Below, one piece after another: positions 2,619 to 52,443 of a stretch of 64,000 nt of DNA (position 1 is its first letter; every line of letters starts with the position of its first letter). The DNA lies in assembly GCA_003223515.1 (NCBI GenBank), contig QHVI01000018.1, forward strand, positions 1 to 64,000, given 5' to 3'. Below the pieces are notes generated by a model. The model searched no databases, had not been told where the DNA came from, and saw only the letters and a program-made list of their open reading frames with translations. The DNA comes from Candidatus Angelobacter sp. Gp1-AA117 (lineage in GTDB: Bacteria; Acidobacteriota; Terriglobia; Terriglobales; Acidobacteriaceae). Made by a program: the position numbers and the translations under genes.

Positions 2619-4337
2619 GTGGATCAGGTAACTGGTTCAGCTCGCTTGCTGCGCTTTGGTATCTACGAAATAGACCTGGAAGCGGGAGAGCTGCGCAAGG
2701 GCGGCCGAAAAGTAAGTTTGCAGGAACAGCCGTTTCAAGTCCTGGTACTGCTCCTCACGAATCACGGGCGGCTGGTGGCTCGCGAGGAACTACAGAGACG
2801 CCTCTGGCCGGCTGACACCTTCGTAGACTTTGACCTGGGCCTGAACACCGCAATCAAAAAGATCCGCACGGCGCTGGGAGACTCGGCTGAAAACCCAAGG
2901 TTCATTGAAACTCTGCCCCGCAGAGGTTATCGCTTCATCTGTCCGGTAGAAGAAATTTCTTCTGCTCTCAATCAAGCGCAACCTGCAATTCCCACACTCG
3001 GACAAACTGCTCCTGCAGCAAGTGCTGCCCGCGTGTCATACAAGAAGCTCTTGCTGGCCCTTGGCCTTGCCGGGGTACTGATGGCAGGGGGTATTGTGTC
3101 GCTGCATCGCACAGGAGCACCCCGCACCAGGGCCGAGTTGGAAAGATTGGGAGACCGGGGAACTGCGGACAATACTGCTTATGAGTTCTACAAGAAAGGC
3201 CGGATGGCACTGCCGGGCAACGCTGATGAAGCCATCCAGCAATTCCAGCAGGCCCTGAAAGCTGATCCTTTATATACAGTCGCCCGGGGCGGACTGGGTG
3301 AAGCGTATATGAAGAAGTACAAGACTACCCACCAGGACGAATGGAAAACCAAAGCACAGGACGCCTGCAAGCAGGCAGTGGATTTGGATTTCACCCGGCC
3401 TGCAGGACGCATCTGCCTGGGGATTTATGACCACGTACTCGGAAACTACAAACAGGCTGTTCAGGACTTTTCTGAGGCCATCAAGATTGATCCTGAAAAT
3501 AAAAGGGCATATCAGCTCCGGGCCTGGGCATACCAGCTTTCTGATCAGCCTGCAAAAGCGGAAAGTGATTTCCTCAAAGTCACGCACCTTCCTCCTGCTG
3601 ACTTCACTGCCTATGCCGACCTGGGGCAGTTTTATTTCAAGAACAGCCAGTTTGCCGAGTCGGCCAGAGCCTATGAAAGCGCTATCGGGAGAAAAGGTGA
3701 TGATGCCAGGCTGCATTCCAGCCTGGCAGCAGCCTATGAGCAGATGGGAAAGTATGACCAGGAGATAGCGGAGATCCAGGAAGCAAACCGGCTGCAACCT
3801 AATTTTGACGGCTTTGAGAATCTCGGGCTGCACTTGCTGAACAAACGGAATTTCGATGAGGCCATCCAGAATTTTCAGGCAGCAATTCAGCAATCTCCTG
3901 AGGATTATCGCGGCTACGGCACGCTGGCCCGCGCCTACTTCTGGGCTGGCAAACGCGATCTGGCCCGCGCCAACTACGAACATGCAATTGCGCTGGCGAA
4001 AAAGAAACTTGAAGTCAATCCCGATGATGCTGATGTAAATCTGATGCTGGCTGTTTACCAGGCGATGCTGGGACAGGAAAAACCCGCTCTTTACCATTTA
4101 GCCAGCGTCCAACAGTTGCAGCCGGATGTACCGGAAGTGGCTTTCTGGGCTGCCATTGTAGAACTGACACTCGGGAAACGAGACCGGGCCCTAGCCCTCG
4201 TCCGTCAGGCACACGATCTTGGGTACCCCGCTGTGGAGATGAATGCTGCTCCCGATCTGGACAGCTTGCGCAACGATCCGGAATTCCGGCAGATCATGTC
4301 CGCGGCCAACACAGTCCATTCGCATCACCAACTCTGA
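2619..4337 (+). CDS. Membrane-anchored winged-helix regulator with TPR repeats
   Basis: 572 residues. Residues 10-110 form an OmpR/PhoB-type winged helix (FGIYEIDLEAGELRKGG, recognition part LNTAIKKIRTALGD, closing wing RRGYRFICPVEE). A single membrane segment spans about 142-162. About ten TPR units follow from roughly residue 185 to the end (for example AIQQFQQALKADP, AVQDFSEAIKIDP). The layout resembles CadC/ToxR: DNA binding inside the cell, sensing or scaffolding outside. Start is GTG at 2619 with AGGAAGG upstream. The secreted protein at 4354 follows after 16 bp and is probably in the same transcript. Ligand and target genes cannot be read from sequence. Confidence 0.85.
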   Translation: MDQVTGSARLLRFGIYEIDLEAGELRKGGRKVSLQEQPFQVLVLLLTNHGRLVAREELQRRLWPADTFVDFDLGLNTAIKKIRTALGDSAENPRFIETLPRRGYRFICPVEEISSALNQAQPAIPTLGQTAPAASAARVSYKKLLLALGLAGVLMAGGIVSLHRTGAPRTRAELERLGDRGTADNTAYEFYKKGRMALPGNADEAIQQFQQALKADPLYTVARGGLGEAYMKKYKTTHQDEWKTKAQDACKQAVDLDFTRPAGRICLGIYDHVLGNYKQAVQDFSEAIKIDPENKRAYQLRAWAYQLSDQPAKAESDFLKVTHLPPADFTAYADLGQFYFKNSQFAESARAYESAIGRKGDDARLHSSLAAAYEQMGKYDQEIAEIQEANRLQPNFDGFENLGLHLLNKRNFDEAIQNFQAAIQQSPEDYRGYGTLARAYFWAGKRDLARANYEHAIALAKKKLEVNPDDADVNLMLAVYQAMLGQEKPALYHLASVQQLQPDVPEVAFWAAIVELTLGKRDRALALVRQAHDLGYPAVEMNAAPDLDSLRNDPEFRQIMSAANTVHSHHQL

Positions 4338-4353
4338 ACTACAGGAGAGTCAA

Positions 4354-5055
4354 ATGAAACTCCGCTCCAGTGCAGTTGTGGTTTGTGTGCTCCTAGGTTT
4401 GATTTATCCGCTCCATTCCCAGCAGGCCCGAAAAGCAAACACGCAAAACATCACAGTAGGAACCGGGAAAGACCATGTAGTCGATCTTTGTGCTCTGGCC
4501 GCAACTCTCACGGCGGATTCCGCCCCCAATAAGCGGGTAGCAGGGAGCGTTACAATCTCAGGACACAAAACAATCCAACTGGAGACCCTCCATACCCCCA
4601 GAAAGCAGTATCGGCTCATTGAGCATGACGAACCCAAGGTCTCCTACCCGAATCAGGAGCAAATCGTCTGGACTTGTCTCGACAAGAATTTTCAGATCAC
4701 TAGTATTCAGAAAATTGGCGAGCCGGATAAACCAGGCAGCAGCGGCAATTCAGATGCAATGGAATTTCCTTTTGATCCGAAAAAGAATCCGGGGCTCTAT
4801 GCACCCCAGAAAGCAGGAACAAAGTGGCCTTCCGGCCCTCCAGTATGCCAGGCTGTGGGGCAGTGGTATAAATACAGCTTCATCATTGGCGGCTCAATTA
4901 AGAAAAACCCTGATGGCACTCAATCCCTGATTGACGGAGATTCATTCGATCCACACTTCATCGTGACCGGTGGAACTGATCCAACGTACCGGCTCCTTCC
5001 CTGTCCTCGCCCCAATCCAACCCCAGCCAAAACACCAACTAAATCGAAGCACTAA
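4354..5055 (+). CDS. Secreted hypothetical protein
   Basis: 233 residues from ATG 4354, which has ACAGGAGAG 6 nt upstream; longer in-frame starts lie inside the preceding gene and lack a ribosome site. A signal peptide (AVVVCVLLGLIYPLHSQQ) is followed by a polar, Pro- and Lys-containing mature protein with two short Cys-containing segments (VDLCALAAT, IVWTCLD) and a C-terminal Pro/Thr/Lys-rich tail. No family is recognised. It probably forms an operon with the winged-helix/TPR regulator. Confidence 0.75.
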   Translation: MKLRSSAVVVCVLLGLIYPLHSQQARKANTQNITVGTGKDHVVDLCALAATLTADSAPNKRVAGSVTISGHKTIQLETLHTPRKQYRLIEHDEPKVSYPNQEQIVWTCLDKNFQITSIQKIGEPDKPGSSGNSDAMEFPFDPKKNPGLYAPQKAGTKWPSGPPVCQAVGQWYKYSFIIGGSIKKNPDGTQSLIDGDSFDPHFIVTGGTDPTYRLLPCPRPNPTPAKTPTKSKH

Positions 5056-8729: not shown

Positions 8730-9932
8730 TCATTCGCGTTGATTCATAGCCAGCTTTTCTTCCTCCGTGCAGCTCCGTACCTCAGTGATTGCGTGGTGGG
8801 AGTTGAAGGCCTGCTCAAGATCAGCAATCAGGTCCTTTTCATCTTCAATCCCCACACTCAAGCGCACCAGATCATGCGGGAAGCACGATTTCTCCCGCAG
8901 TTCCGGGGGAATGCTGGAGTGCGACATGAAATAGGGCAGGCTGATGGAGGAATTCACGCTTCCGAAGCTGACGGTGATCGCGAAGATTTTCGTTTGCTCG
9001 GCAACATGGCGTGACAGCTCCACATCGCCGGTCTCAAAGGCCACCAGTGCGCCCCCGCCACGTGCCTGCTTTTCATGGATGCTCTGCTCCTGCGCTGATC
9101 CCCAGCCGGGGTAGAACACCCGTTTCACCTGCGGATGCCTTTGCAGAAAATCCAGGATGCGCAGGGCATTCTCCTGCTGCCGCTGCATGCGCAGGCCCAG
9201 GGTTTTGAGTCCACGCAGCAGCAGAAAGCAATCGAAGGGACCGAGCGCAGCGCCTTCGCCGTTCTGGATCAGGTACAAATCCTGAGCCAGCTTTGTGCTG
9301 TTCACCGCCACCACTCCGGCCGTGACATCGCTGTGCCCGCACAGGAATTTGGTGGCGGAGTGCACCACGATGTCTGCGCCGTGATCCAGGGGAGCTTGCA
9401 GATAGGGCGACATCATGCTGTTGTCCACCGAGAGCAGCGCCCCGTAGGAATGAGCGAGTTCCGCGACGGCAGCAATGTCAGTAATGCTGAGCAGCGGATT
9501 GCCTGGCGTTTCGATATGAAGGAGTCTGGTCTGCGGGGTGATGGTCTCGCGCAACTCGTCCAGCGATGTGCCGGCGGCATAGCGCACACCAATTCCCCGG
9601 GGCTGGAGAATCCTCGAGAACAAACGGTAGGCGCCGCCATAGAGGTCGGTGCCCGCCAGGATTTCTTCACCCGGCTTCACTAGCCTGCTGATGGCCGCCA
9701 TGGCCGCCATGCCGCTGGAAAAACAGAAAGCGCGCCCGGCATTCTCCAGCAATGCCAACTGCTTTTCGAGCACGGTGCGGGTGGGATTGCCGCTGCGCGA
9801 ATAATCGTAATCTCCGAACTCGGTGGCGAACTCCTGCTCAAAGGTGGCCGTCTGGTAGATGGGCGTGGCCACGGGGCGGTAAGGATCGTCAGGACACTGG
9901 TCGAAGCGCACAAGTTTTGTATCGAAGTTCAT
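8730..9932 (-). CDS. metC: Cystathionine beta-lyase/gamma-lyase family PLP enzyme (MetC-like)
   Basis: 400 residues of the Cys/Met-metabolism PLP family. Visible features: PIYQTATFEQE, YSRSGNPTR, the PLP phosphate-binding YGG near 98-100, and the Schiff-base Lys195 in SATKFLCGHSD. In this operon the likely reaction is cleavage of cystathionine to homocysteine, pyruvate and ammonia, the step after MetB. Gamma-lyase or direct sulfhydrylase activity cannot be excluded by eye. The ATG overlaps the stop of the upstream aspartokinase-homoserine dehydrogenase gene by 4 bp (ATGA), indicating translational coupling. It is the last gene of the operon and is followed by a hairpin. Confidence 0.85.
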   Translation of the reverse strand: MNFDTKLVRFDQCPDDPYRPVATPIYQTATFEQEFATEFGDYDYSRSGNPTRTVLEKQLALLENAGRAFCFSSGMAAMAAISRLVKPGEEILAGTDLYGGAYRLFSRILQPRGIGVRYAAGTSLDELRETITPQTRLLHIETPGNPLLSITDIAAVAELAHSYGALLSVDNSMMSPYLQAPLDHGADIVVHSATKFLCGHSDVTAGVVAVNSTKLAQDLYLIQNGEGAALGPFDCFLLLRGLKTLGLRMQRQQENALRILDFLQRHPQVKRVFYPGWGSAQEQSIHEKQARGGGALVAFETGDVELSRHVAEQTKIFAITVSFGSVNSSISLPYFMSHSSIPPELREKSCFPHDLVRLSVGIEDEKDLIADLEQAFNSHHAITEVRSCTEEEKLAMNQRE

Positions 9933-11734
9933 GCTGCGCCTCCTGCCAGCGGCTCTTCTTCATAGGTGTTCGAATGTTTGTGCGCCGGTACGGACTCATC
10001 AGCGCGGCCGAGGGCGGCCACGCTCCATAAGCGAGTTGATTGGTTATGTTGTCGCCAAAGATCAAGCGCGTCGGCAAAGACGGCCTCAGCAGTGGGCCAG
10101 CGTCCGGCTCCGCGCCCGCGCAATGTAACGCTCTGGCCATCGCTTGTGGTTAGAACCAGGCAGTTGTGCTCATTGTGCACCTGCGCGAAGACATGGTCTG
10201 CGCTGAGAATCTCAGGGGAGATGCGAGCGTCAATGCGGGAGCCATTCTTCCGGGCGCGAGCCACCAGACGGACGGACTGCCCGGATGCTGCCAAGGCGCG
10301 CACCTCGGTTTCAGGAATTGAAAGGATGCCTCTCACCTGAATCGTGCTGAAAACCGCCTGAGCGCCAAAGGCCGCACGCGTGAGCAGCAACAGCTTCTGC
10401 GCCGCATCGGTAGCCTGCAAGTCGTGGATAGGATCAGCCTCGGTGAAGCCGCAGCTCTGTGCCAGAGTGATGGATTCTTTCAGACTGCGGCCTTGCGCAA
10501 TCTGGTCGAGTATGAAGTTGCAGGTTCCGTTCAGCACGCCGGCAATCTCCACCACTTCATGTTTCCGGCTGATGTTCTTTACGGTTTCCAGCATGGGCAC
10601 TGCGCCGCCCACCGCCGCCGAATAGGAGAGCGTGAGATCGTGATGTGCTGCCTGCTGCAGGAGAGACTTGCCTGCTGCAGCGAGCAGAAGCTTGTTGGCC
10701 GTGACTACGTGCTTGCCTGAATCGAGCGCCGAGCGCACCAGTTCTTCCGCCGGAGTAAGTCCGCCGATCAGCTCAAAGACCACATCGCAATCGCTTTCCA
10801 CGATCTCACGCGGATCAGTTGTCAGCAACAGCCGCTCAGGAACTGGAAGATCACGTTTTTTGTCGCGATCCCGGACAGCCGCTCCGCACACCGTGAATCG
10901 CTCCGGCTCACTGAGCAGCCGGTGCAGAACACCCAGGCCGACAGTCCCAAGGCCAAGCAGTCCCACGCGCAGTTTCCGATTCGGATCATTGGCTGAGCCG
11001 AAGGTCGTACTGCTGTGTCCGACCTCAGTCGCCACATCCGACGCGACCGCGCCCACTTCAAAAGCGAACTGCTGCTGCCGGGCAAACTGAATGGCCTTGG
11101 GCTGGACGATACCTGCATCCAGCCGTGACGCATCGCCAAAGCTGATGCTTTGAAAGCGCCGCGGTGCAGACGCATGGAGCGCAGGGTCGTGCTCGTAGAG
11201 TCCATCTACATCTTTGATCAGGCGGCATTGCGCACCCAGCTTCTGCGCGATGAAGATCGCGGAGAGATCAGAGCCGCCGCGTCCAAGCAGAGAGTGGCTG
11301 CCGTCTGCATGGCGTCCGACGAAGCCCGGCACAATAGCCACCGGACGCTCCTGAAGATGGCGAAGCACTACCTCCGTATCGATACAGACCGGGTCAGCGT
11401 TGAGTCTGGGTCCGCAGGTTTCAAGACCGAGCGCGTGCGCTTCCAGCACCGCCGCTGGAATGCCTGCGCGATCGAGTTCCAGCGCCAGCACCGCCGCCGA
11501 GTAGGCCTCGCCAGTGGAGACCAGCGCCGCTGTGGCCCATGCATCGGGGCTGGCCGAGCGGGATTCAGCCCGCTGCAGCAGTTTGTCAGTGCTGCCTGCG
11601 AAGGCCGAGACGATGGCCACCACGCGAAATCCCTGCCTGTACCAGCGATAGATTTCATGCACGGCTCGCGGCGCGTCCTCTTCAGATCGCAGTACGGAGC
11701 TGCCGAATTTCAGAACAATTATCGGGAGGCGCAT
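9929..11734 (-). CDS. Bifunctional aspartokinase-homoserine dehydrogenase, no ACT domains
   Basis: 601 residues. Aspartokinase part 1-245: KFGSS at 9-13, GRGGSD 151-156, IKDVDGLYEHDP 173-184. Homoserine dehydrogenase part from about 255: dinucleotide loop VGLLGLGTVGLG at 257-268, VTANK, LNGTCNFIL. Classic ThrA/MetL fusions are about 810-820 residues because two ACT domains lie between the halves; here the link is only about ten residues, so feedback by amino-acid binding at ACT sites is not expected. The enzyme supplies homoserine for MetB, with which it overlaps by 16 bp. The last residues (LWSVAALGRADE) are coded by a copy of the dispersed MERGRPRPR repeat, followed by a short odd tail. Confidence 0.9.
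   Translation of the reverse strand: MRLPIIVLKFGSSVLRSEEDAPRAVHEIYRWYRQGFRVVAIVSAFAGSTDKLLQRAESRSASPDAWATAALVSTGEAYSAAVLALELDRAGIPAAVLEAHALGLETCGPRLNADPVCIDTEVVLRHLQERPVAIVPGFVGRHADGSHSLLGRGGSDLSAIFIAQKLGAQCRLIKDVDGLYEHDPALHASAPRRFQSISFGDASRLDAGIVQPKAIQFARQQQFAFEVGAVASDVATEVGHSSTTFGSANDPNRKLRVGLLGLGTVGLGVLHRLLSEPERFTVCGAAVRDRDKKRDLPVPERLLLTTDPREIVESDCDVVFELIGGLTPAEELVRSALDSGKHVVTANKLLLAAAGKSLLQQAAHHDLTLSYSAAVGGAVPMLETVKNISRKHEVVEIAGVLNGTCNFILDQIAQGRSLKESITLAQSCGFTEADPIHDLQATDAAQKLLLLTRAAFGAQAVFSTIQVRGILSIPETEVRALAASGQSVRLVARARKNGSRIDARISPEILSADHVFAQVHNEHNCLVLTTSDGQSVTLRGRGAGRWPTAEAVFADALDLWRQHNQSTRLWSVAALGRADESVPAHKHSNTYEEEPLAGGAA
9996..10033 (-). repeat. MERGRPRPR dispersed repeat, copy 1, inside a coding sequence
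   Basis: Matches the copies at 23922 and 51698 over about 33 nt. On the minus strand it holds ATGGAGCGTGGCCGCCC and a GGCCG/CGGCC hairpin. Here it is read in another frame as LWSVAALGRADE in the C-terminus of the aspartokinase-homoserine dehydrogenase fusion. Confidence 0.8.
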
Positions 11735-12924
11735 TTGGCCTCCTTCTCCTGTTCAGCAACAGGAAGCGCGGCAAAGGCCTGTTGGAGATCGGCAATCACA
11801 TCCTGCGGATCTTCCAGACCGACCGAGAGACGAATCAACCCATCGGTAATACCTGCGGCCGCCCGCTGTTCTACCGGGACATCACCATGAGTCATCGATG
11901 CGGGATGCGTAATCAGCGTCTCGGCAGCGCCGAGATTTTCGGCCAGATAGCAGAACTTCACGCGGTTCATCACGTCGATGCCCGCATCAACTCCGCCCTT
12001 TACTTCAAAGCTCACCAGGCCGCCATGAGCCTTATGCTGCCGCAATGCCAGTTCATGCTGCGGAAACGAAGGCAGGCCGGGATAGAGTACGCGCGAAACC
12101 ACAGGATGAGCTTCCAGCCATTTCGCGACCTGATGCGCATTTTCACAGTGCGCCTTCAGGCGCAGCGGCAGCGTCTTCAATCCGCGCACTGTGAGCCAGC
12201 TCTCCAACGGAGATTGAATGCAGCCCAATGTCTTGCGCACGAAACGCAGCTTCTCTGTCAACGTACTGTCGCGCAAGGCCAGAGAGCCGCCCACGGTGGA
12301 GTTATGGCCTTCAATGTACTTGGTAGTCGAGAGCACGGAGATATCCGTGCCCTGATCGAGCACCGGCTGAAGGATTGAGGTGAGGAAAGTATTGTCAACC
12401 GCCAGCAGCGCGCCTGCCTTGTGTGCGATCAGCGCGATTGCCGATACATCCGTGAGCTTTAGTGTTGGATTCGCGGGTGTCTCGATGAATACGAGCTTAG
12501 TCTTAGGCATTATCGCTGCTTCAGCCGCCTGAGGATCAGACGTATCCACAAAACTTGCAGCAATCCCATATTTATTAAGCACGCGCTGCAGCAGGCGCAC
12601 GGTGCCGCCATAGACCACGTCAGACACGATGACGTGATCACCGGATTCAAGCAGCGTGAGAAAAAGCGTGGTAATCGCGGCCATGCCGGTGCTGAAGCAC
12701 ACCGCCGGCAATGAGCCTTCAATTTCTCCTAAAGCGCGTTCCAGTTGGTCTACTGAAGGATTGGCTGCGCGTGAATACGTGAAACCTTTATGACGGCCTA
12801 CCGCTTCCTGCAGAAACGTGGTCGACTGGTAGATAGGCGTAAGCAGTGCGCCGGTAGCGGGGTCAGGTGAAGAACCGCCGCGTACCGCGCGCGTAGACAG
12901 GCGCGGATCGATTTCGAAAGACAT
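11719..12924 (-). CDS. metB: Cystathionine gamma-synthase (MetB-like)
   Basis: 401 residues of the Cys/Met-metabolism PLP family. It has TPIYQSTTFLQE, YSRAANPS, YGG at 105-107 and the Schiff-base Lys202 in STTKYIEGHN. It would join an activated homoserine and cysteine into cystathionine, first gene of the metB/aspartokinase-homoserine dehydrogenase/metC operon. No homoserine acyltransferase is in the window. The ATG at 12924 has GGGAGA about 7 nt upstream. The gene lies behind a 220-nt leader with attenuator-like structures, suggesting control by methionine supply. It shares a family with the 8730-9932 product; the split between gamma-synthase and lyase follows operon order and the closer MetB-like motif set. 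Confidence 0.85.
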   Translation of the reverse strand: MSFEIDPRLSTRAVRGGSSPDPATGALLTPIYQSTTFLQEAVGRHKGFTYSRAANPSVDQLERALGEIEGSLPAVCFSTGMAAITTLFLTLLESGDHVIVSDVVYGGTVRLLQRVLNKYGIAASFVDTSDPQAAEAAIMPKTKLVFIETPANPTLKLTDVSAIALIAHKAGALLAVDNTFLTSILQPVLDQGTDISVLSTTKYIEGHNSTVGGSLALRDSTLTEKLRFVRKTLGCIQSPLESWLTVRGLKTLPLRLKAHCENAHQVAKWLEAHPVVSRVLYPGLPSFPQHELALRQHKAHGGLVSFEVKGGVDAGIDVMNRVKFCYLAENLGAAETLITHPASMTHGDVPVEQRAAAGITDGLIRLSVGLEDPQDVIADLQQAFAALPVAEQEKEAKCASR

Positions 12925-12986
12925 ATGTATTCTCCCATTCGTGAAAAGGGGTGAGCGTTGTGACCGAAAAGGGGCGTAAAAGACTT

Positions 12987-13012
12987 CGGCCGCCTGTTAC
13001 CCCAGGCGGCCG
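12987..13012 (-). terminator. Attenuator hairpin in the met operon leader
   Basis: A perfect 10-bp GC-rich stem (CGGCCGCCTG/CAGGCGGCCG) with loop GGGTAA, followed on the minus strand by AAGTCTTTTACG. It lies 62 nt before the metB ATG. The U-run is short, so termination strength is uncertain; it could also act by structure alone. Confidence 0.6.
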
Positions 13013-13072
13013 CTCACGATGGGAAATTTGAAACCGTCAGACTCCCGTCACAAGCAAGACACCACCTGGGGT
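12999..13072 (-). promoter_or_regulatory. Alternative (antiterminator) pairing in the met leader
   Basis: Leader bases 13072-13062 (ACCCCAGGTGG) can pair with 12999-13009 (CCGCCTGGGGT) in 11 consecutive pairs, one of them G-U. The second segment is the 5' arm and loop of the hairpin at 12987-13012, so the two structures exclude each other. The first segment lies in the leader ORF right after its Met codons. Confidence 0.55.
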
Positions 13073-13117
13073 GCGCATGCTCATAAACATTCGGGTTGTC
13101 TGCGGGAAATAGCTCAT
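13037..13117 (-). CDS. Putative Met-rich leader peptide of the met operon
   Basis: A 26-codon ORF, ATG at 13117 and TGA at 13037-13039, reading MSYFPQTTRMFMSMRTPGG and then VLLVTGV. Three Met codons lie at positions 10, 12 and 14, immediately before the codons (R-T-P-G-G) that form the antiterminator segment. This is the arrangement expected of a control peptide whose ribosome stalls when charged Met-tRNA is scarce. There is no clear Shine-Dalgarno sequence; a 6-bp hairpin (CACAGT/ACTGTG) lies between the predicted transcription start and the ATG. Translation is inferred, not shown. Confidence 0.45.
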   Translation of the reverse strand: MSYFPQTTRMFMSMRTPGGVLLVTGV

Positions 13118-13149
13118 GACGATTGCCACAGTGTTACTGTGAAGACCTG

Positions 13150-13177
13150 ATTATAGACAACCCCATTGAATTGTCAA
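13150..13177 (-). promoter_or_regulatory. Sigma-70 promoter of the met operon
   Basis: Perfect TTGACA (13172-13177) and perfect TATAAT (13150-13155) separated by 16 nt. Transcription would begin near 13142, leaving a leader of about 218 nt before metB. Confidence 0.8.
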
Positions 13178-13331
13178 GAAACTGCACTACGACTTTTCAC
13201 TGGTAGATACATGATTATCGATCCAGACTATTGAAGTACCGAAACCGAGGAGATTAGGAATCGCGTGATCCGGAGTTCAGGTGATCTGAAGAATCGAACT
13301 TGAGATTGGATGGCCGGAGATACCCAACAAA

Positions 13332-13357
13332 GGCGCTGCTGGACTGCCAGCAGCGCC
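13332..13357 (-). terminator. Hairpin downstream of the secreted protein gene
   Basis: Perfect 11-bp stem GGCGCTGCTGG/CCAGCAGCGCC with a 4-nt loop, followed on the minus strand by TTTGTTG, 46 nt after the stop of the 13404-14927 gene. Confidence 0.6.
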
Positions 13358-13403
13358 GATTTTGGGCGTCGTTCGTTTGTATCAGGATGGGCAGTTGCCG
13401 CAC

Positions 13404-14927
13404 TTACCAGATCCACAGGTTGTACTTGTCGTAGTACACGCTGTTGGTCGGATTGGTGCTGCTGTCATTATCGATCTGCTGCTCGATATTCGTATTGGTC
13501 GCAGTATTATGCAGGTTCAGCGCCGAATAAGTTTTTCCAAGATTCTGGAAAACCGTGGTCCCGTCAAAAACAAACGTCTGATACGTGTAGCTCTGCGTGG
13601 ACGTATCGAACGTGACGTAAAGCTGGAAGTGATGCCAGTTTCCCGCCAATATGGTGGATGCGGTGCACGGGAAAGTCGTGGCGTCCCAAAAGTCTCCGGC
13701 CGAATTCCACAGGTACCAGAATCCAGAATTGGTACCCTTCAGCCGGCAAGCGACGGATGCGAAGTACTTGAAGCCGGCGTTGTACAGATCCGGGTCGAAC
13801 TCCAGTTGCTCGATGTTAGTTGTACTGGCGGGCTGGAAATACATGTCCTCCAGCATGTTCTTCACCGCCGCGCAATTATTGTTCGGGCAGCCAAGGTGGC
13901 GGTAGTACATGGTGTTGAAGCCTGTTCCCGTCGACGTCTGCTTCATCGAACCGCTGCTCGAGAGCGCGGGCTGCTGGCTGAACTGCAGGCTGCTGCTGCC
14001 TCCATTCTGGCCTCCGGCGCACGTCGTCCCGCTGCAGAGCGTCCAGGTTCCCGGATTGCCTCCACCCGCGACCTGCAGATCGGGGAAAGAGGCCGCGTTC
14101 GAGGGCGGCGTCGGCAGCGGCCCGCCACCGCCGCCGGATCCATCGGGTGTTCCGTTCGTGGTGAGGCTGACCTCGTCGGTATAAACCTCGTAAGGAGCGT
14201 TGGCCGAGTTCAGGTCCAGTTGCAGGATGTTCAGCAGATTGTTGGACTCGGCAGTTGATACTCCCGGAGAGAACAAATTGCTGCCGCTCACGTCCGTAAT
14301 GGGATAAGTGGTGCCGTTGATGATCATGTTCGTCCACTGCACGCATTGGCCACTGGGTGAAGACATCCCAGCCGGGCATGTCGTCCTCTGGAAATTGAAT
14401 GTGAGATGGTTCCAGCCCGGTGTGAAGGCCACGCAGTTGCGGTTGGAACTCGTCCAACTCGAAGTGCTTGGGTTATAAAAGCTCCACGCCCCGCCCACGA
14501 AATCGCATTGCACGTCCATCCTGTAGTTCACGCCCGACAATGCCTGCTCCACCCCGAACTCGATAGCCTGGGCCACGCTCGCAAAGTTCTGGTCGGTATT
14601 GATGGTCAAATCCAGTTGGAAAGTCGTCGCATTCGATTCCGGCGTGAAGGTCGCCCACCACAGGCCGGTCCCGAAGGCAGGCCCGTTGCTGCCCACGTGG
14701 AATTCTTGCGACGCGCCATCCAGTTGCTTCCCGGCGGTCGTCACATTCTGTGCCATCCACGAAAGATTGGCATTCCCGAAAAAGTTAGGTGTGCTCGTTC
14801 CTGGCTGAAGCCAGGCGCTGCTGTCGTCGATGTTGCTGATGGTAGTTTGAGCCATTGCTGGAATAGTTAGAAAAGTTGTGGCAATAAGAATGCTAAGCAG
14901 GTTAAATGGTGCCCGCAAAAGGCGCAT
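13404..14927 (-). CDS. Secreted protein with two related beta-sandwich halves
   Basis: 507 residues from ATG 14927, which has AGGAGA 9 nt upstream; in-frame codons further up lack a site. Signal peptide (LSILIATTFLTIPAMAQ). Two halves of about 200 residues are joined by a linker GSGGGGGPLPTPPS. They share a layout: a segment like IEFGVEQALSGVNYRMDVQC versus LEFDPDLYNAGFKYFASVAC, then W-rich W.FYNPSTSSW versus WYLWNSAGDFW, then Cys followed by GWNHLTFNF versus NWHHFQLYV. This points to an internal duplication of a lectin/concanavalin-like fold with a conserved Cys pair. Probably extracellular binding; ligand unknown. A hairpin terminator follows. Confidence 0.75.
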   Translation of the reverse strand: MRLLRAPFNLLSILIATTFLTIPAMAQTTISNIDDSSAWLQPGTSTPNFFGNANLSWMAQNVTTAGKQLDGASQEFHVGSNGPAFGTGLWWATFTPESNATTFQLDLTINTDQNFASVAQAIEFGVEQALSGVNYRMDVQCDFVGGAWSFYNPSTSSWTSSNRNCVAFTPGWNHLTFNFQRTTCPAGMSSPSGQCVQWTNMIINGTTYPITDVSGSNLFSPGVSTAESNNLLNILQLDLNSANAPYEVYTDEVSLTTNGTPDGSGGGGGPLPTPPSNAASFPDLQVAGGGNPGTWTLCSGTTCAGGQNGGSSSLQFSQQPALSSSGSMKQTSTGTGFNTMYYRHLGCPNNNCAAVKNMLEDMYFQPASTTNIEQLEFDPDLYNAGFKYFASVACRLKGTNSGFWYLWNSAGDFWDATTFPCTASTILAGNWHHFQLYVTFDTSTQSYTYQTFVFDGTTVFQNLGKTYSALNLHNTATNTNIEQQIDNDSSTNPTNSVYYDKYNLWIW

Positions 14928-15207
14928 GTGTACTTCTCCTGGATGGGAATTCGGATGGTGGACATCACCGTAGATTCCATGCGACCGCTGGATGTTGTCA
15001 GCTTCGTAACAACTTTTGCGGAATTCGGAAAAACTACTGTTTTTTTGATTTTTTCTTCGCGCAATCATGAATCATCTACGTTGAGGTGGTAGTTGAATTT
15101 ATTTAAGATGAGGAGAAGGCTGCGGATTGGGGTATTTCAAAGGAGAGCCGCCGGGTCTTTTCGGCCAAAAGCAGATAAGCATCTTCCTCACCCTGGAGCG
15201 AACAAAT

Positions 15208-23039: not shown

Positions 23040-23129
23040 TGGCGGAGAGGGAGGGATTCGAACCCCCGGTACCCTTTCGGGTACAGCGGTTTTCAAGACC
23101 GCCTGTTTCAACCGCTCACACACCTCTCC
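23040..23129 (-). tRNA. tRNA-Ser(UGA)
   Basis: A 90-nt cloverleaf with acceptor stem GGAGAGG/CCTCTCC, encoded CCA, T loop GTTCGAATC, anticodon loop CTTGAAA (anticodon TGA) and the long variable arm typical of serine tRNAs (GTACCC/GGGTAC). The 3' end points to the left, toward the duplicate at 16233. Confidence 0.95.
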
Positions 23130-51834: not shown

Positions 51835-52314
51835 TTGATACTGGACCGGACGATTGCTGTCTTCGCGAGAAGAGAGAGGAAAGTCCGAACTCCGTAGAGC
51901 AGTGTGCCGGATAACGTCCGGGATGGCGGGTTCAAGCCCGTCAGACGGAAAGTGCAACAGAGAAAATACCGCCCGGGCCGCAAGGCGCGGGTAAGGGTGA
52001 AAAGGTGCGGTAAGAGCGCACCGCCTGGGCAGTAATGCACAGGGCATGGCAAACCCCACACGGAGCAAGACCAAATAGGAAGGGAATAAGCAGTATTGGG
52101 CCAAGGCGAAAGCCGGGAGCCCGTTGAGAGTCCCAGTGACTCTTTTAGGCCGGCAGCGAAAGCTGTTCTGTGCCTCTTGACTGCATGCGTGCCTGCTCGG
52201 CGCGCTTAACCTTCGGGTAGGTCGCTTGAGCCGTTCAGTAATGGACGGCCTAGAGGAATGATCGTCAGCGGCGGCAACGCCGTTACAAAATTCGGCTTAC
52301 AGGTCCAGTATCAA
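51835..52314 (+). ncRNA. rnpB: RNase P RNA, bacterial type A
   Basis: The conserved core is clear: GAGGAAAGTCCGAACT near the 5' end, AGGGTGAAAAGGTGCGGTAA and GAGCGCACCGC in the middle, ACAGAAAATACCGCC before it, and ACAAAATTCGGCTTACAGGT near the 3' end. P1 is formed by TTGATACTGGACC at 51835 and GGTCCAGTATCAA ending 52314. The RNA of about 480 nt cleaves the 5' leader of tRNA precursors with the RnpA protein. It is longer than the usual 350-400 nt, so P12 or P19-type arms may be extended. No protein frame here is real. Confidence 0.95.
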
Positions 52315-52443
52315 TTATTTTCTTAACATCCCGAGCGCCAGCGAGGGATCTCTATCGTCACGACACAGTTCTCAGCTCTCCCCAACAAAATTGGTAAATG
52401 GGTAATTTGGTAATTGTGTAAATGAACCCCTGCCACTGCTGCT

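Follow-up and report, generated by a model that had tools for sequence, protein, structure and literature searches.

Organization of the metB operon and its leader region

The window, by which we mean the whole stretch of 64,000 nucleotides that was analysed, carries on its minus strand an operon of three genes with overlapping ends, in the order metB-like gene, aspartokinase-homoserine dehydrogenase fusion and cystathionine beta-lyase-like gene (Table 1). The best NCBIfam match of the metB product is a cystathionine gamma-synthase family (NF005871, 434.5 bits, under its cut-off of 513), and methionine synthesis is the role of the genes under control. The operon is preceded by a sigma-70-type promoter, a short ORF and a series of segments that can pair with each other in alternative ways. 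A preliminary description of the locus had claimed a consensus promoter, and this holds at every position; a search of the region returned 1 site, against a mean of 0.4 in shuffles. The 26-codon ORF and the perfect 10-bp hairpin 62 nt ahead of the metB ATG, both part of that description, were likewise recovered.

Table 1. Features of the metB operon and its leader, and structural RNAs elsewhere in the window
Feature	Position	Strand	Basis
Sigma-70-type promoter TTGACA-N16-TATAAT	13150..13177	-	12/12 consensus positions
Small 5' hairpin CACAG-taaca-CUGUG, right after the promoter	13127..13141	-	Sequence; lead only
Putative leader ORF MSYFPQTTRMFMSMRTPGGVLLVTGV, 26 codons + UGA	13037..13117	-	Sequence
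Three proposed regulatory Met codons (ATG TTT ATG AGC ATG)	13076..13090	-	Kept in relatives
Apical part of 1:2 hairpin (GCACC-CCAGGU-GGUGU)	13059..13074	-	Covariation
Segment 2, 5' arm of predicted antiterminator/anti-sequestor	13062..13072	-	2:3 helix, ACCCCAGGUGG
Anti-Shine-Dalgarno segment UUUCCCAUCGUG	13015..13026	-	Pairs with metB Shine-Dalgarno region
3:4 hairpin, perfect 10 bp, terminator-like, weak U tract AAGUCUUUU	12987..13012	-	Sequence
Segment 3, common to 2:3 and 3:4 helices	12999..13009	-	CCGCCUGGGGU
metB Shine-Dalgarno region CACGAAUGGGAGA, sequestered in the proposed OFF fold	12931..12943	-	Predicted pairing
metB-like cystathionine gamma-synthase (Cys/Met PLP enzyme)	11719..12924	-	PF01053, 456.6 bits
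Aspartokinase / homoserine dehydrogenase fusion	9929..11734	-	PF00696, PF03447, PF00742; NF004976 homoserine dehydrogenase above cut-off
Cystathionine beta-lyase-like PLP enzyme	8730..9932	-	TIGR01329, 486.9 bits, just below cut-off 487.5
tRNA gene	23043-23129	-	Rfam gathering
RNase P RNA class A	51838-52315	+	Rfam gathering

The two structural RNAs in Table 1 are the only Rfam families that reach their gathering scores in the whole window. Matches to FinP, mir-373 and ncS01 near 13274-13372 were rejected, being centred on the terminator hairpin of the neighbouring gene. This strong terminator-like hairpin (13332-13357, minus strand) lies 3' of the gene at 15068..13404 and explains the weak FinP match. 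Small hairpins of changing sequence, similar to the one right after the promoter, were seen in the promoter-to-start-codon interval of relatives (L042-L046, L079); a conserved 5' hairpin was nevertheless discarded as a candidate, with 5.7 pairs versus 5.3 in mononucleotide shuffles hardly above chance.

Conservation of the leader ORF and its Met codons

The three Met codons in the RMFMSMR stretch of the ORF (13090-13088, 13084-13082 and 13078-13076), to which the preliminary description had drawn attention, are kept in relatives. In a set of 35 leaders, 34 from the family and one from a planctomycete (L014), a Met codon is present at the first, second and third position in 33, 31 and 32 cases, respectively. 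The peptide core R-M-x-M-x-M-x-x-P/L-G-G is nearly invariant, the stop codon lies 51 nt past the first Met codon (Met1) in 31/35 leaders, and the nearest in-frame ATG is found 6-10 codons ahead of Met1 in 32/35, the exceptions being L058 (52 codons upstream), L061 (none) and L014 (1 codon before Met1). Three Met codons within six occur in 25 of 42 metB upstream regions, compared to 0.6% of dinucleotide shuffles and none of the 42 opposite strands. This enrichment, together with the conserved start and stop positions, rules out an ORF that arose purely by chance, and the ORF is putatively translated. By eye, an evident Shine-Dalgarno (SD) sequence is absent ahead of the leader ATGs, both in the window and in relatives. 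Two leaders, L060 and L061, still match the covariance model, but neither the second and third Met codon nor a complete 2:3 helix remains in them; judged from their sequence, these leaders are apparently in the course of decay.

In a search of 250 genomes from the family, 43 metB orthologues were found; the element precedes 30 of them, and it is absent ahead of the other 13 by both ORF scan and covariance model. Homologues with an E value above 1e-122 (identity mostly 44-51%) counted as paralogues here; of their upstream regions, only that of a truncated 73% copy in G198 was included. Five more leaders came from a search of the class. The covariance model gave 28 matches in 399 genomes of the class; all 16 matches at E <= 1.1e-5 lie ahead of metB in the same family, although 11 of the 16 are from genomes used to build the model, and none of the 12 weaker ones lies ahead of metB, one of them (L100) having led to the metY leaders described below. 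Two leaders left out of alignment A2, L079 and the modified-motif L078 (the latter also outside the set of 35), match the model with E values of 6e-30 and 7e-13.

A search with the whole leader as DNA in 60 other genomes found only one true relative, G029 (74% over 133 nt), and two further hits, L011 and L012, were judged to be chance matches. A protein search added the leader of a MAG that carries the name Acidobacteriaceae bacterium bog_257 in its deposit. The same leader is found again, as L038, in a genome from the family of the window, and on this ground the window was placed in Acidobacteriota. Both the G029 and the bog_257 leader precede metB and share RMxMxM with the window, with different residues at the start. 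Within the genus, nine genomes were searched and the metB orthologue was found in the window's genome only; the operon was therefore either gained or widely lost. Among metB relatives with deposits from outside the Acidobacteria, the five closest are L014-L018; two of these, L014 from a planctomycete MAG and L018 from the unclassified bacterium Gpa_5, have Met-rich leader ORFs ahead of metB, each as an isolated case. In L018, the region 4326-4458 upstream of metB contains a leader ORF with MMAMTEAMAMP, a terminator that has seven U residues and, as judged by eye, a long pairing of antiterminator type; from its sequence, this looks like an independent Met attenuator.

Mutually exclusive helices in the leader RNA

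The window leader folds at -77 kcal/mol, compared to -63.3 (sd 4.3) for shuffled sequences, none of 200 being as good. Segment 3 can pair either with segment 2, immediately downstream of the Met codons, or within the 3:4 hairpin, and segment 2 can alternatively take part in a 1:2 hairpin; mutually exclusive 2:3 and 3:4 helices plus a 1:2 helix are the arrangement of a ribosome-mediated attenuator. The 11-nt pairing of 2 with 3 noticed in the preliminary description was confirmed as 10 Watson-Crick pairs and one G-U pair (91% complementary). The segment starting 19 nt past Met1 forms a 2:3 helix with 9 or more pairs in 29/35 leaders, this distance from the first Met codon to the antiterminator arm being nearly fixed. 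The codons are placed such that a stalled ribosome would leave segment 2 free, as in known attenuators.

The 2:3 helix was found unprompted by RNAalifold in 29 aligned leaders, with 92.9% of its cells paired; in five rows, C-G is replaced by U-A. The covariation score of this helix lies above those of all 500 shuffles, albeit that such scores can be inflated by related rows, and its share of paired cells was reached by 10 of 500. The number of its pairs changed on both sides is only one, which shows no excess (reached by 429/500 shuffles). In the apical 1:2 hairpin, 12 cells are changed on both sides, a value not attained in any of 500 shuffles; these cells fall in 3 pairs, a count reached by 138/500. 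For the 3:4 helix, 68% of cells are paired across species and covariation is not above that of shuffles. The compensating changes that the preliminary description had proposed to look for in both stems are thus seen in 2:3, and also in 1:2, but for 3:4 not beyond the level of shuffles.

Predicted sequestration of the metB Shine-Dalgarno region

A pairing absent from the preliminary description connects the stretch behind the leader ORF with the SD region of metB. It was found in the window, G029 and bog_257 leaders, each folded alone, and is formed by different sequences in each (UUUCCCAUCGUG/CACGAAUGGGAGA, UCUCCCUUC/GAAGGGAGA and AAAACUCCAA/UUGGAGUUUU, respectively). Over the 35 leaders, the duplex of each SD region with its own anti-SD stretch has a mean energy of -22.2 kcal/mol versus -17.5 kcal/mol for swapped partners, a difference reached in 0/20,000 permutations and, for 20 dereplicated leaders, in 0/100,000. 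The own duplex was no stronger than the swapped mean in three leaders (L066, L079, L095). The 52 nt after the stop codon that were used for this comparison reach segment 3 in some leaders, and because of this a few of the best duplexes (L042, L055, L079, L089) are not with the SD itself. At the level of sequence, the SD:anti-SD pairing co-evolves, as in a translational attenuator. The end of the ORF (GGGAG) was considered as a possible ON-state partner for the anti-SD and found no support, since own-over-swapped pairing was equalled in 328/20,000 permutations for 35 leaders and in 8,055/20,000 after dereplication.

The leader could in principle act by classical transcription attenuation only, as in trp and his operons, with the 3:4 hairpin as an intrinsic terminator and an incidental SD pairing. 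The window's own hairpin does score as terminator-like and passes a strict terminator rule, in several relatives the T run behind the hairpin is longer, and the metY leaders have strong terminators (20/30 loci in the same family and 19/28 in another class, versus 9% and 8% of shuffles). However, the strict rule is passed by only 7/35 metB leaders, compared to 8.7% of shuffles, and the SD pairing co-evolves far above swapped controls, so that we regard a transcription-only mechanism as unlikely. With few strict terminators, metB control is therefore probably largely translational, and the OFF state is best read as sequestration of the SD around the 3:4 hairpin, to which some genomes would add termination. 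The likeness to his, trp and thr attenuation drawn in the preliminary description stands as far as the exclusive folds and the Met codons are concerned; since the OFF fold also locks the SD and strict terminators are few, the leader is not simply a transcription attenuator of the his/trp kind.

Proposed mechanism

The anatomy of the leader (ORF, Met codons, fixed geometry, covariation of the 2:3 and 1:2 helices, co-evolving SD and anti-SD, gene content of the operon) and its conservation make a Met-codon attenuator very likely, and we consider it probable that the element is a ribosome-mediated device that senses charged elongator tRNA-Met. Stalling at the Met codons, the order of folding, the ON-state partner of the anti-SD and the division between transcription and translation are what we infer from these features. 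With ample methionine, the ribosome would pass RMFMSMR and reach the stop codon, upon which the RNA would adopt the 1:2, 3:4 and anti-SD:SD pairings and the metB SD would be hidden; where the U tract allows, this OFF fold would also end transcription early. Under a shortage of Met-tRNA, the ribosome would stall with Met codon 1 or 2 in the A site and its leading edge just ahead of segment 2, leaving this segment free to pair with segment 3. The anti-SD:SD stem is closed by the 3:4 hairpin, which the 2:3 helix would break, and we propose that the SD would therefore be free more often and the operon be made. Given usual ribosome footprints, a stall at Met1 or Met2 just frees segment 2, and a stall at the third Met codon covers part of it. 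An argument against a Met attenuator is that methionine starvation should also lower initiator Met-tRNA, and thereby initiation on the leader.

Folding with the ribosome footprint masked is consistent with this switch in the window. In a model up to the hairpin, a stall at Met1 gave values of 0.97 for 2:3 and 0.02 for 3:4; with the ribosome at the stop codon these were 0.09 and 0.66, and without a ribosome 0.00 and 0.73. In these masked folds, which are equilibrium folds, 2:3 beats 3:4 in 29/35 leaders when stalled, in 20/35 with the ribosome at the stop codon and in 12/35 without a ribosome, the fold of L097 being unreliable as its Met positions are shifted. The masking model thus does not always separate stop from stall. 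Modelled accessibility of the SD rises modestly, from a mean of 0.13 without a ribosome and 0.14 at the stop to 0.26 when stalled (0.02, 0.01 and 0.17 in the window), and the SD is more open in the stalled than in the stop state in 26/35 leaders.

A different way of sensing would be an arrest peptide, in which the nascent chain RMxMxM(C/R)xPGG responds to methionine or SAM in the exit tunnel and stalling does not depend on codons. Plant CGS1 is a precedent for methionine/SAM sensing of this type, and in the metB leaders the residues flanking the Met codons (R, PGG and often PAS) are indeed conserved. However, PGG is encoded by the antiterminator arm, where the compensated change from C-G to U-A also changes the residue (P to L), and the metY leaders have few residues in common apart from Met and Cys, which makes an arrest peptide very improbable. 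That metY leaders of other sequence contain Met and Cys codons argues that the codons are read, as in the attenuator that we favour.

Methionine genes elsewhere are controlled by SAM riboswitches, T-boxes or MetJ/MetR. Although riboswitches or T-boxes are usual for such genes, and a metB relative in a planctomycete MAG (L017) has a sub-threshold SAM-I/IV match, we give hardly any credence to a metabolite-binding riboswitch or T-box with an incidental ORF, as the ORF, its length and its Met codons are conserved, none of the four sub-threshold Rfam matches at E values up to 5 around the leader is a riboswitch or T-box, and no Rfam riboswitch reaches its gathering score in 18 related loci. In favour of the preliminary description, against which a match to a known riboswitch model would have told, a scan with all Rfam families gave no match of SAM-family or T-box covariance models at the leader; a SAM-I riboswitch (RF00162) was not found in the window's genome, nor a riboswitch at gathering score in any of 34 loci scanned. 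The match in L017 (4283-4434, ahead of the metB relative) scores 29.6 bits with an E value of 0.005, against a gathering score of 41.1, and the upstream region of L015 resembles that of L017 by eye. These may possibly belong to a divergent group of SAM riboswitches.

Relation to known regulatory systems

Attenuation by leader peptides is known for Trp, His, Thr, Leu, Ile, Val and Phe. The metB leader resembles the trp, his, thr and leu attenuators of Proteobacteria in its short ORF, in which codons for the end product recur, and in its 1:2, 2:3 and 3:4 pairings, and its first regulatory codon lies about 20 nt ahead of segment 2, as in the trp attenuator. In contrast to these systems, it has Met codons, its OFF state would hide the SD, its terminator is often weak, and it occurs in Acidobacteriota. 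In translational attenuators of the ermC type, drug-induced arrest in a leader ORF frees a sequestered SD. A stall that frees a sequestered SD is also what we propose here, but the ermC trigger is a drug and not amino-acid limitation.

A description of a methionine leader-peptide attenuator was not found among the open-access papers listed for Met, Cys or Acidobacteria attenuators. The trp, his, thr and leu attenuators are mentioned in the relevant passages of PMC2965389 and PMC1262725; in the former, almost none of the predicted attenuators of Acidobacteria has an assigned function, and in the latter no conserved RNA structure is given upstream of the Met operons of Actinobacteria. Leader genes near start codons are counted in PMC4833913, in which a search for the word methionine gave no hit. 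The met operon of Xanthomonas (metA-metB-hom) is described as being under the translational control of a SAM-I riboswitch, which responds to uncharged initiator tRNA-Met as well (PMC6230763, PMC7270179). As far as these accounts go, it is similar to the metB leader in its 5' UTR location, in its mainly translational control and in an SD that is freed from an anti-SD when methionine is short; it differs by an aptamer with tRNA binding and by no leader peptide being described, whereas the metB leader has no SAM-I match.

If the leader-peptide reading for the Acidobacteriota is true, elongator Met-tRNA could be measured by stalling although every ORF, also that of the leader itself, starts with Met-tRNA, which raises the question of how a device that needs initiator Met-tRNA can report a lack of Met-tRNA. 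The switch would join leader-peptide stalling and SD sequestration in a soil acidobacterium, and would provide a likely function for leaders in a phylum whose predicted attenuators, according to the part of PMC2965389 on them, have almost none assigned.

Similar leaders ahead of metY, cysD and other genes

Similar leaders, which were not part of the preliminary description, extend beyond the metB operon. The metY gene encodes O-acetylhomoserine sulfhydrylase (TIGR01326, above cut-off), and its upstream regions in the same family (L100, L110-L139) contain ORFs such as MPKTGNRRVEAMAMCMCMACGPIRAALERQMR with alternating Met and Cys codons (MAMCMCM). The loci compared were the 30 best of each search. 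At least four Met/Cys within 10 codons are present in 28 of 31 metY loci of the same family; of the 30 loci with enough upstream sequence, 28 have such a run, compared to 5% of shuffles and 5/30 opposite strands, and at least six are found in 23/30, versus 0.1% of shuffles and 0/30 opposite strands. In another class of the phylum, 24/28 metY loci have at least four, versus 0.7% of shuffles and 2/28 opposite strands; these leaders (L178-L207) contain stretches such as MNMRMRMR, MAMIMRMSMR and ICMCMCSM and often long terminators. A metX-like gene (TIGR01392, under its cut-off) directly follows metY in eight of these genomes. By eye, L100, L110, L111 and L114 have a tiny hairpin, UGCG...CGCA, whose loop contains the stop codon of the leader ORF.

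Ahead of cysD (L174, L238-L267, of which L245 is in the window's genome), Cys/Met-rich and mostly Cys-rich ORFs such as VYCCCQCFSCCCC occur in 22/30 loci, versus 6% of shuffles and 4/30 opposite strands; for Cys alone this is 21/30 versus 2% of shuffles. From their sequence, these leaders are likely to be Cys attenuators. Attenuation by Cys leader peptides has been proposed in PMC1262725 and PMC8632094, in passages on Mycobacterium and Rhodobacterales, respectively. The Mycobacterium cys leader ORFs, with their sulfur-amino-acid codons, and the Cys codons of the Rhodobacterales uORFC-8-2 cysS motif are analogous to the cysD ORFs found here; as presented there, both cases concern only Cys and other lineages, unlike the metB leader, and the Mycobacterium leaders have no conserved terminator hairpin (PMC1262725).

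As a further target, metE was examined and rejected: of 13 loci, among them one with almost no upstream sequence, only 2 have weak ORFs, which are unlike the others, and a Met-run leader was not seen in these loci. On balance, we lean towards the view that supply of sulfur amino acids in Acidobacteriota is largely run by separately evolved leader peptides (Met for metB, Met and Cys for metYX, Cys for cysD), some acting on transcription and others on the SD, rather than by SAM riboswitches.

A search of the window's own genome for ATGNNNATGNNNATG gave 179 matches, and the scan took in 30 loci and 13 stretches around the matches listed. Besides that of metB, one convincing leader was found among the matches listed, at 1012-1113 of L269 (contig 87), where MQQSVHSPVLACCCMAMCMCLCTGGRSVLQNLS is followed by a terminator ahead of genes for an ATP-grasp protein and a luciferase-like monooxygenase. 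From its gene content, this operon may perhaps serve in sulfur scavenging.
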